In this document: positions 32,825-35,374 of the stretch, one piece after another
Layout: every line of letters begins with the position of its first letter
Position numbering within the stretch: the stretch's first letter is position 1
The notes under the pieces: model-generated
What the model was told of the DNA's origin: nothing
The model's database searches: none
Seen by the model: the letters and a program-made list of their open reading frames with translations, nothing else
Position numbers and translations under genes: made by a program
Assembly: GCF_007744675.1 (NCBI RefSeq)
Contig: NZ_CP036269.1
Coordinates: 3,265,546 to 3,329,545 of the forward strand
Reading direction: 5' to 3'
Source of the DNA: Gimesia alba
GTDB lineage: Bacteria; Planctomycetota; Planctomycetia; Planctomycetales; Planctomycetaceae
Length of the DNA stretch: 64,000 nucleotides

Positions 32825-35374
32825 GTGGATTTAAATGTGACCGCACTTCGAGACTCGTTCGAACTGATTGCACCTCGTGCAGATCAGCTGGCAGAACGAT
32901 TCTATGAGAAGTTATTCGAAGATTATCCCGACCTTCTACGTTATTTCACGCATACCGATTTTTCGGAACAACGCGGTAAGTTAATTCAGTCACTTGTTCT
33001 CGTGCTGAAGTCACTTGAGAACCCCCCTGCTCTGACTAAGGTTTTACACCAGTTGGGGAACCAGCATGGGGAAATGGGAATTCAGGAGGATGATTATCCA
33101 CCAGTAACCAGTACGCTGCTCAGTGTATTGGGTGAGTTTGCAGGTGATCAATGGAGTGAAGAACTGGAAGAGTCCTGGAGTCAGGCACTCGAAGCGGTTG
33201 CATCAACCATGATTGAAGGTGCTAAAGACTCAAGTCGCGCAAAACAGCTTCAATCGGCGGCTGTATCAGGCTCACAGGGAGCCAGCTTTGAAGAAGTGGA
33301 ATCCGAACAGGAAATTCCGTCGATTTCAGAGGAACAAGACAATCTACAAACCGAACCATCTTTAAGATCTGAAGAGCAGATCAATAATCCCAAGGAGAAT
33401 AGTGATATGTCGATTGATTCAGTACAGAATACGGGACAGAGCGCGGCTACTGAACAGTCGCAGAATCTCGATCAGTTTTATGGTATCGTTGAATACAGTC
33501 CACAGGCGACTCTGTTTCTGAATACAGAAGGAACCGTGACTTATTTAAATCGCAAGGGGCAAGAGTTAATCCAGCAATTGAGTGGAGACCTGGGAGTCGC
33601 CCCTCAGCAGCTTGTTGGCGGAACAGTGAATCTGTTGTTTCATAAAATCCCAGAATTGCAGACAGTGCTTGGAAGTTTGACGGGTGAAAAAACAATTTCC
33701 GTTCAATTGGGTGAAAGACATATTCAAATCGGACTGAATCCTGCCAAATCTGAGGATGGCTCAATAGTCGGAACTGTTCTGAACTGGAACGATACCACAG
33801 AACAGGAGAAGCACGCTGAGGAACTCTGTGATTATGCCGGTCAGTTGGGTGCGATCAGCCAGGCCCAGGCTGTGATCGAATTCAACATGGATGGGACGAT
33901 CATCACTGCCAATCAGAATTTCTGCGTTACATTGGGATATACCCTGGATGAAATTAAAGGGAAGCATCATAGCTTGTTTGTCGATGCGGACTTTAGAAAC
34001 AGCAATGAGTACAAAGAGTTCTGGGAAAACTTGAATGCCGGACAGAATCAGGTTGCTGAATACAAACGCATCGGAAAAGGGGGGAAAGAGGTCTGGATCT
34101 CTGCTTCTTACAATCCGATTAAGAACCAATCCGGCAAACTGTTTAAGGTTGTCAAATATGCAACTGATATCACAGCCAAAAAACTGGCTGAAGAAGATAT
34201 GGTCCGTGTTCAGAATATGATGGAGAACATTCCGACCAATGTTCTGCTGGCGAATCTGGATTTTGAAATGGTTTATATGAACCCAGCGTCGCGGAGTCAG
34301 CTCAAAGCAATCGAGCACTTGTTGCCGAAGCCGGTCGATCAATTGATCGGGCAAAGTATTGACATCTTCCATGAAAATCCGGAAATGCAACGCCGCCTGT
34401 TGGCGGATCCTTCTAATCTGCCGCATCGGGCTAAAATCAAGGTCGGCGACGAAACGCTGGATCTTGAAGCGACTGCAATCTTCGATAAAGACAATAACTA
34501 TATTGGTCCGATGGTCTGCTGGTCAGTGATTACCGACCAGGTGAAAATGGCCGATGATTTCGAATCTGAAATTCAGGGCATTGTAAGCGTGGTGACCTCT
34601 TCTGCCACCGAGATGCAGGCCAGTTCCAAGAGCTTGTCTGACATGTCAGATGAAACGGCTCGTCAGTCACAGGTTGTGGCTGCTGCCAGTGAAGAAGCCA
34701 CCCGCAACGTGGAAACGGTTTCCTCTGCTGCAGAAGAGTTGAGTGCCTCCATCAGTGAAATCGCTCGTCACGTGCAAGAGCAGTCACACATGACTTCGCA
34801 GGCTGTGGGTGAAGCGGATCGCACCAACGACACGATTAAAGAACTGGGTGATGCCAGCAGTGAAATCGGTCAGGTCGTTAAGGTGATTACATCAATTGCT
34901 CAGCAGACGAACTTGTTGGCATTGAACGCAACCATCGAAGCAGCTCGTGCCGGTGAAGCCGGTAAAGGGTTTGCTGTTGTGGCGAACGAAGTCAAAGAAC
35001 TGGCTCGCCAGACTGCTCGGGCAACGGAAGAAATCAGTGAGAAGATTGGTGCCATTCAAGGTTCCACGAACATTGCTGTATCTGCCATTGGTTCGATTGG
35101 TGAGAGTATTCGCAAGATCAATGAGATCTCGACTACGATTGCCAGTGCGGTTGAAGAACAGACTGCGGCAACCAACGAAATTTCACGCAATGTGGCAGAA
35201 GCCGCTCGCGGGACGGCTGAGGTTACGAATAATATCTCAGGTGTTTCTCAGGCAGCGACAGACAGTGGAACGGCAGCAAACGATATGTTGGCAGCTGCTC
35301 AAGGCCTGACTCAGGAATCTGTCAAACTGGACGAAGCAGCCGCTTCCTTCCTGACACGCATGAGAGCAATCTAA
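32825..35374 (+). CDS. Soluble chemoreceptor: globin, three PAS-like regions, MCP signalling domain
   Basis: The 849-residue receptor starts at GTG 32825. Residues 1-135 form a globin domain like that of flavohaemoglobins: RFYEKLF with Tyr27 at the B10 position, Phe41 at CD1, Gln49 at E7 and proximal His81 (GNQHGEMGI then DDYPPV). An acidic linker (about 145-210) leads to three PAS-like regions (about 220-330, 340-455, 460-575); the second has FNMDGTIITANQNF and a PAC segment. The methyl-accepting domain (580-849) carries the hairpin tip LLALNATIEAARAGEAGKGF. There is no transmembrane segment, so it senses cytoplasmic cues. Haem binding suggests O2, NO or redox. A strong terminator follows. 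Confidence 0.93.
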   Translation: MDLNVTALRDSFELIAPRADQLAERFYEKLFEDYPDLLRYFTHTDFSEQRGKLIQSLVLVLKSLENPPALTKVLHQLGNQHGEMGIQEDDYPPVTSTLLSVLGEFAGDQWSEELEESWSQALEAVASTMIEGAKDSSRAKQLQSAAVSGSQGASFEEVESEQEIPSISEEQDNLQTEPSLRSEEQINNPKENSDMSIDSVQNTGQSAATEQSQNLDQFYGIVEYSPQATLFLNTEGTVTYLNRKGQELIQQLSGDLGVAPQQLVGGTVNLLFHKIPELQTVLGSLTGEKTISVQLGERHIQIGLNPAKSEDGSIVGTVLNWNDTTEQEKHAEELCDYAGQLGAISQAQAVIEFNMDGTIITANQNFCVTLGYTLDEIKGKHHSLFVDADFRNSNEYKEFWENLNAGQNQVAEYKRIGKGGKEVWISASYNPIKNQSGKLFKVVKYATDITAKKLAEEDMVRVQNMMENIPTNVLLANLDFEMVYMNPASRSQLKAIEHLLPKPVDQLIGQSIDIFHENPEMQRRLLADPSNLPHRAKIKVGDETLDLEATAIFDKDNNYIGPMVCWSVITDQVKMADDFESEIQGIVSVVTSSATEMQASSKSLSDMSDETARQSQVVAAASEEATRNVETVSSAAEELSASISEIARHVQEQSHMTSQAVGEADRTNDTIKELGDASSEIGQVVKVITSIAQQTNLLALNATIEAARAGEAGKGFAVVANEVKELARQTARATEEISEKIGAIQGSTNIAVSAIGSIGESIRKINEISTTIASAVEEQTAATNEISRNVAEAARGTAEVTNNISGVSQAATDSGTAANDMLAAAQGLTQESVKLDEAAASFLTRMRAI

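Follow-up and report, generated by a model that had tools for sequence, protein, structure and literature searches.

The gene discussed here lies in a window of 64,000 nucleotides from Gimesia alba (contig NZ_CP036269.1, positions 3,265,546 to 3,329,545; coordinates below are those of the window) and encodes a chemoreceptor in which a globin is followed by PAS domains and a methyl-accepting domain (Table 1). Between the globin and the first PAS domain it carries a Shine-Dalgarno motif and an in-frame ATG, which recur at the same junction across phyla and from which a globin-free receptor might also be made. An earlier note, made from the sequence alone, had described the gene as a chemoreceptor with an N-terminal globin, three PAS-like regions and a complete methyl-accepting domain, and this layout is borne out. 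A Pfam scan of the receptor finds Globin (PF00042, 59.0 bits, residues 25-129), PAS (best 70.1 bits, residues 354-451) and, at the C-terminus, the methyl-accepting signalling domain MCPsignal (PF00015, 110.9 bits), and no HAMP domain around the PAS domains at E up to 0.01. The AlphaFold2 model shows globin helices, three PAS folds (residues 216-323, 349-448 and 472-568) and a helix at 570-848, with residues 145-212 disordered; it was built on an alignment of 30 relatives, and at a predicted template modelling score of 0.27 the arrangement of the domains is not readable from it.

Table 1. Features of the globin receptor gene and of the adjoining che genes, in window coordinates (pLDDT, predicted local distance difference test)
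Feature	Position	Strand	Basis or remark
Globin-PAS-PAS-PAS-chemoreceptor gene	32825..35374	+	849 amino acids, GTG start, weak Shine-Dalgarno (-4.9 kcal/mol)
Globin domain, residues 1-135, Hell's Gate globin I type	32825..33229	+	Pfam, PDB match, fold match, tree, alignment
Lys52 (E10) codon, candidate sixth haem ligand	32978..32980	+	Analogy with Lys52(E10) of HGbRL; ligation inferred
His81 (F8) codon, predicted proximal haem ligand	33065..33067	+	Alignment
Linker, residues 140-215	33242..33469	+	Predicted disordered, pLDDT <50 at 145-212
Internal Shine-Dalgarno AAGGAG	33392..33397	+	Codons AAG GAG identical in 14/14 Gimesia genomes
Internal in-frame ATG (Met195), predicted second translation start	33407..33409	+	Shine-Dalgarno pairing, codon conservation, recurrence
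Predicted short product, 655 amino acids, globin-free PAS-PAS-PAS-chemoreceptor	33407..35374	+	Inference
PAS1, distant Aer2-type	33470..33814	+	Haem His in window protein, missing in 8/8 other Gimesia rows
PAS2, nearest FAD-binding MmoS and Aer PAS domains	33857..34189	+	PDB match, Pfam, AlphaFold2
PAS3, Aer2-type haem PAS	34193..34570	+	His516 and Trp566 align with PaAer2 His234 and Trp283
Kinase-control helical region (MCPsignal)	34532..35368	+	Directly after PAS3, no HAMP found
cheA (Hpt, H-kinase_dim, HATPase, two CheW stretches, receiver)	29576..32317	+	Pfam; true start possibly further in
cheW	32314..32784	+	Pfam
cheY-like receiver	35614..36066	+	Pfam; true start possibly further in
cheB	36063..37118	+	Pfam
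cheR	37106..37975	+	Pfam

What kind of globin does the receptor carry? By alignment its pocket consists of Tyr27 (B10), Phe41 (CD1), Gln49 (E7), Lys52 (E10), Leu53 (E11), His81 (F8) and Tyr91 (G5), and the B10, CD1, E7 and F8 residues named in the earlier note are all in place. Modelled alone, the domain forms globin helices (mean pLDDT 89.5), and in the fold comparison that the note had proposed, its first match, like its nearest PDB sequences, is Hell's Gate globin I/HGbRL of Methylacidiphilum (M/F-family), with which it shares Tyr B10, Gln E7, Lys E10, Leu E11 and His F8. The note had called the globin flavohaemoglobin-like. This stands for the superfamily and fails for the family: flavohaemoglobin globins branch apart from the receptor globin with support of 100/100, and all five flavohaemoglobins aligned have Ala at E10 where the receptor has Lys, which together rule out kinship at the family level; the Pfam scan of the receptor also finds none of the flavin adenine dinucleotide (FAD)/nicotinamide adenine dinucleotide reductase domain of flavohaemoglobins. 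In HGbRL, Lys(E10) ligates the haem, and its group is recognized by a haem-ligating or shielding residue at E10/E11 (PMC4476040); in the receptor these positions hold Lys52 and Leu53. Judged from alignment and tree, the receptor globin is a member of the flavohaemoglobin superfamily nearest to Hell's Gate globin I and outside the flavohaemoglobins, and it is likely to bind haem. As the note had also said, it is not of the HemAT type (S-family): Protoglobin (PF11563) reaches only 22.7 bits in the receptor against a Pfam cut-off of 25, which rules that type out. The absence of HemAT-type chains from the fold matches listed (at least 50) is no evidence either way. Two HemAT-type globins are encoded elsewhere in the same genome, in separate frames of 194 and 203 amino acids (G000:C1:174337-174867 and 268489-269013).

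A second haem site, which the earlier note had missed, is likely to lie in the third PAS domain. In the PDB, at E up to 0.1, PAS3 (residues 457-582) finds no chains other than those of Aer2 type (3vol at 6.6e-15, 4hi4 and 6ceq), of which 3VOL and 6CEQ are tabulated as haem-b Aer2 of Pseudomonas and Vibrio (PMC8694187), and the haem ligand of PaAer2 is His234 (PMC13401364). In the alignment both the haem His and the Trp of Aer2 are preserved in PAS3, as His516 and Trp566. The Trp of PaAer2 is Trp283; His and Trp are 49 residues apart in 3vol, matching the numbering of His234 and Trp283. PAS1 is a weak relative of Aer2 in the PDB search (E 1.2e-5), and haem in PAS1 is ruled out as a family trait, the His being missing in 8 of 8 other Gimesia rows. 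The nearest PDB chains of PAS2 are MmoS (3ewk) and Aer, both FAD proteins. BdlA is a name given in some databases to Gimesia relatives of the receptor, and the PAS domains of BdlA have been classed as FAD candidates (PMC8694187).

How might one gene supply receptors with and without the globin? The AAGGAG of the linker stands 9 bases before the ATG of Met195, and its pairing of -8.5 kcal/mol is the strongest of the 17 in-frame Met, the next being -5.5 and the main GTG start -4.9; the pairing was computed against the usual 16S tail, which is the assumed partner for this genome. The ATG is identical in 14/14 Gimesia genomes. Among the same genomes, one single codon is used in 15 of the 19 degenerate columns of codons 190-213 in which the amino acid is invariant, compared with 60 of 477 over the whole open reading frame (ORF; hypergeometric P 1.5e-11). 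The site has what is looked for in a pair of N-terminal proteoforms, a conserved in-frame putative start with its own Shine-Dalgarno motif. A hidden overlapping gene was rejected as the cause of the frozen codons, for four of the five other frames contain stops in every row, and the fifth, +1, is open in 6 of the 13 rows read. A sigma-70 promoter was not found on the plus strand of the linker, the sole plus-strand match lying upstream of the gene. Frozen synonymous codons are also seen at 33281-33387 (codons 153-187), well upstream of the internal Shine-Dalgarno motif, where a ribosome-binding site alone is no explanation.

The same site is found far outside Gimesia. Genome contigs were scanned with the globin alignment, and the 80 loci kept out of 123 span, by their contig titles, Nitrospirota, Gammaproteobacteria, Cyanobacteria, KSB1, Chloroflexi, Planctomycetota and others. 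With the loci from planctomycetes added there are 72 globin-receptor ORFs, reduced to 48 by thinning on shared 4-mers, in which the linker stretch was taken as up to 110 residues past the globin. An ATG lies within this stretch in all 48, and the strongest internal Shine-Dalgarno/ATG of the ORF falls there in 29, where 7.3 are expected (0 of 200,000 simulations). Sites pairing at -6 or better make up 83% of the linker sites and 7% of the other internal ATGs. If 47 receptor ORFs from the contig scan are ranked one by one, with a median of 26 ATGs each and the main start included, the best linker ATG takes the top rank in 25 and one of the top two in 33. The RNA around the linker site is weakly structured, also when compared with neighbouring codons. 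Loci bearing the motif have titles of Nitrospira/Nitrospirota, Gammaproteobacteria, KSB1 and Planctomycetaceae, and since the residue pairs under the motif vary from gene to gene, it is not the peptide that is conserved. Thus, a Shine-Dalgarno motif and ATG at the globin-PAS junction recur across phyla.

Must such a site start translation? A purine-rich motif could instead slow the ribosome, so that the globin folds and loads haem before the PAS domains are made, with no initiation at all, and a site in a linker just after a folding unit would suit this role. However, the core motif, present in 44 of the 48 ORFs, ends 5-11 bases before the ATG, and 8-9 bases before it in 31 of the 44, and the residue after the ATG is Ala, Ser or Thr in 38/48 linker sites against 218/993 others (P 5e-16), as at true N-termini. 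Moreover, among 11 cyanobacterial fusions of the globin to pentapeptide repeats (L152 being assigned to this set by its length), 6 have no linker ATG and only 1 has a site at -6 or better. We hold ribosome slowing to be very improbable. Little can be drawn from 15 non-redundant globin fusions in which no methyl-accepting motif is readable: the strongest site falls in the linker in 4 against 2.4 expected, and the set combines fusions from cyanobacteria, fusions to CheA and receptors truncated at contig ends. Another possibility is that ATG and motif are a relic of an in-frame fusion of a globin gene upstream of a receptor gene, and that only the long protein matters. The ATG of Met195 is indeed near the position of the first Met in a globin-less sister receptor (G018), and the tree is compatible with a single origin of the planctomycete receptor globins. 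A relic in a disordered linker should erode, though, while the codons of the site are frozen in 14 Gimesia genomes and the motif persists in loci of the four groups named above by title, and we regard a relic as unlikely.

It is to be noted that several observations weigh against an internal start. The 16S 3' end was not found in this genome, by a search that matched only 9 of 14 control genomes. Counting Met195, 6 of the 330 internal ATGs of the window have an equally strong Shine-Dalgarno motif, and therefore the internal site convinces only through its recurrence. Start-region sites of -6 or better occur in only 42% of 43 predicted genes, even with the best start in the first 60 codons taken. 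In the 14 Gimesia genomes the freezing extends to codons 140-189 (11/17), beyond what a ribosome-binding site would require, whereas codons 2-20 after the main start escape it (3/17). Among the 48 ORFs, three linker sites are weak (L178, L186 and L108, at -1.5, -1.8 and -3.0); and a median of 7% of codon positions per linker pair as strongly as its site, counted in overlapping windows. In four smaller sets, the P values of the synonymous tests were 0.011, 0.18, 0.18 and 0.043.

With these points counted in, the reading that we find rather probable is that the gene encodes a soluble receptor combining two probable haem-bound sensors of O2 (or nitric oxide, NO), a Hell's Gate globin I-type domain and an Aer2-type PAS domain, and that its conserved start-like site would yield a globin-free receptor as well. 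PAS3, which abuts the kinase-control helix and whose haem His and Trp are kept in sister receptors with a decayed or lost globin, would be the core, in-line O2 sensor. The globin would be an optional second haem module tethered by a flexible linker, with Lys52(E10) as its probable sixth ligand at rest, to be displaced by O2 or NO. Initiation at Met195 would give a short receptor sharing the haem PAS and the kinase-control helix with the long one, so that the single gene would yield a pair of receptors, one globin-bearing and one globin-free, both acting on the only CheA detected. How much the globin input weighs would depend on the proportion of long and short receptors in the array, and the output would be control of the flagellar motor through CheA and CheY, that is, aerotaxis or gas taxis. 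The weakest step is signalling from the globin to the rest of the receptor. It is hard to picture direct mechanical signalling across about 70 disordered residues, and this too counts against the reading.

If the globin does not push on its own receptor, what else may it do? Globins of the same kind are found on other chemosensory proteins: at the C-terminus of CheW (L132:3838-4896 and L154:3832-4917), three times on one CheW (L143:3922-5748), inserted inside a CheW domain (L178:3448-4389), and ahead of H-kinase_dim in CheA (L137:2-2524 and L156:1-2175), in L137 between Hpt and H-kinase_dim. Three receptors of 1853-1855 amino acids (P0040, P0041 and P0042) carry seven tandem Hell's Gate globin I-type domains before their PAS and methyl-accepting domains, and P0043 is a fragment with five. 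In P0034 (558 amino acids) the same globin precedes a dCache domain with a hydrophobic stretch, and a Met is seen by eye where the two join; in L140 and L141, on contigs titled Bacteroidetes and KSB1, nearly the same receptor has two further globin frames upstream. The CheW and CheA fusions and the seven-fold tandem receptors favour a plug-in module of the array over a classical in-line sensor. A rival reading would make the globin a multivalent add-on of the whole array, either a ligand-gated contact module or a local store of O2 or NO, and not a sensor of its own receptor; the same fusions and tandem copies, the long disordered linker and the site-swapped dimer of HGbRL (PMC4476040) would be in keeping with it. 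The genome of the window, on the other hand, has a single copy on a single receptor. As a matter of general physics, a local store would be of no consequence, given how fast O2 and NO diffuse. We give the add-on only a minor, though real, chance. A broader proposal, which we hold to be about as likely as not, is that Hell's Gate globin I-type domains serve as a plug-in haem module of chemosensory arrays, carried by CheW, by CheA and, as one to seven copies, by receptors, where an internal start conserved across phyla makes them optional, such that gas sensing is tuned by the ratio of globin-bearing to globin-free products of one gene.

The distribution of the receptor suggests how dispensable its globin is. 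A match over residues 1-142 is present in 14 of 17 Gimesia genomes, that of the window included, with a contig-end piece in G011 and none in G007 and G015. In the survey of planctomycetes that the earlier note had called for, the globin receptor occurs in 12 of 392 genomes of a phylum sample (nine Gimesia, G034, G017 and G120), a count that leaves out frames of 386 (G217) and 501 (G188) amino acids; long globin frames in G402 and G288 were rejected as run-on frames of GC-rich sequence. A signalling-domain search of 61 family genomes added 13 loci, and 25 receptors were compared, 9 from Gimesia (8 of the 13 further Gimesia loci and that of the window) and 16 others, G435 (L105) being excluded for a stop in frame. 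A complete globin with the F8 His is present in 17 of the 25. The globin of G032 (L041) still scores 190.8 bits over residues 7-142, yet has Leu at F8 and Gln at E10; remnants without the F8 His are left in G434 (72.0 bits), G029 (34.9) and G329 (15.1); and no globin is seen in G266, G018 and G432. G438 was dropped as a globin-less case since the end of its contig cuts the gene. Of the 25 receptors, 24 retain one or more Aer2-type PAS domains with His and Trp, while several globins are decayed or gone, which indicates that the globin is given up more easily than the haem PAS. This bears on the idea that the globin acts as in HemAT, as the in-line O2 sensor, with the PAS domains only transmitting. 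The globin-first order, the pocket residues and the HemAT precedent (PMC13401364) speak for it; the disordered linker of 70 residues, and the loss or decay of the globin in sister receptors that keep the Aer2-type PAS (except G029, which has neither), speak against it, and we find it quite unlikely. A receptor tree of the family was rejected as a means to count globin losses: the best tree has 6 changes, and the 5 of 22 inner branches that are well supported force only 1.

The earlier note had supposed a distinct sensory architecture. The combination of domains was already reported in 2018 (Sharma et al.; PMC6194562), where PAS, globin and MCPsignal occur together, as in the receptor of the window, in seven proteins including Corallococcus Cc_4972 and proteins of Nitrospira defluvii and the planctomycete Rubinisphaera brasiliensis; many of the named proteins among the at least 120 matches listed are also receptors from Nitrospira. 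The earlier note had missed both the haem PAS of Aer2 type and the conserved, predicted internal start. In the available portion of the 2018 paper the globin of Cc_4972 is Bac_globin (PF01152), and an Aer2-type haem PAS, E10 or an internal start are not mentioned. Compared with known systems, Hell's Gate globin I and HGbRL stand alone or on Roadblock/LC7, whereas the receptor globin is fused to PAS domains and a chemoreceptor. HemAT-type receptors are likewise soluble with an N-terminal globin and MCPsignal output, but their globin is Protoglobin PF11563 (PMC6194562), and the receptor of the window has PAS domains between globin and output. Like Vibrio Aer2, it has several PAS domains in a row (PMC13401364), and unlike Aer2 it carries a globin and a predicted internal start, with no HAMP found. 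For a second product from an in-frame start within the same gene, CheA-L/CheA-S provide a precedent in chemotaxis itself (PMC11005335), although the part left off in the receptor would be a sensory haem domain, and the short receptor is a prediction from sequence. In the open-access literature, subscription papers lying outside the search, nothing was found on an internal start in such receptors, on globin-CheW/CheA fusions or on tandem-globin receptors. If the proposal is right, one receptor joins two lineages of haem sensors usually studied apart, globins and Aer2-type PAS domains, and the choice of translation start decides whether a sensory domain is present.

The receptor stands beside its own che genes, as the earlier note had said: cheA, cheW, cheY, cheB and cheR adjoin it, and it is in this cluster that the only CheW domains detected in the genome lie, a pair in CheA and a single one in CheW. 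FliG is also found in the genome. The order upstream gene (glyceraldehyde-3-phosphate dehydrogenase by eye)-cheA-cheW-receptor-cheY-cheB-cheR-downstream gene is kept in 12 of 12 full-span Gimesia loci (L026-L037); L042 lacks only the upstream gene, and L043 is a short contig. Among the 25 receptors compared, 24 have che genes beside them (cheA and cheW only in G034 and G441), the exception being G433 (L104). Only two MCPsignal proteins are found in the genome. The second has 414 amino acids and no membrane domain in Pfam, and lies 67 bases downstream of a PAS protein of 178 amino acids whose best PDB match is the Aer PAS domain 8dik (5.4e-33). Since the globin receptor and this pair are the only ones found, taxis in this planctomycete seems to be directed at oxygen and redox. 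The second locus (L024:2423-4271) resembles an Aer receptor split in two proteins.
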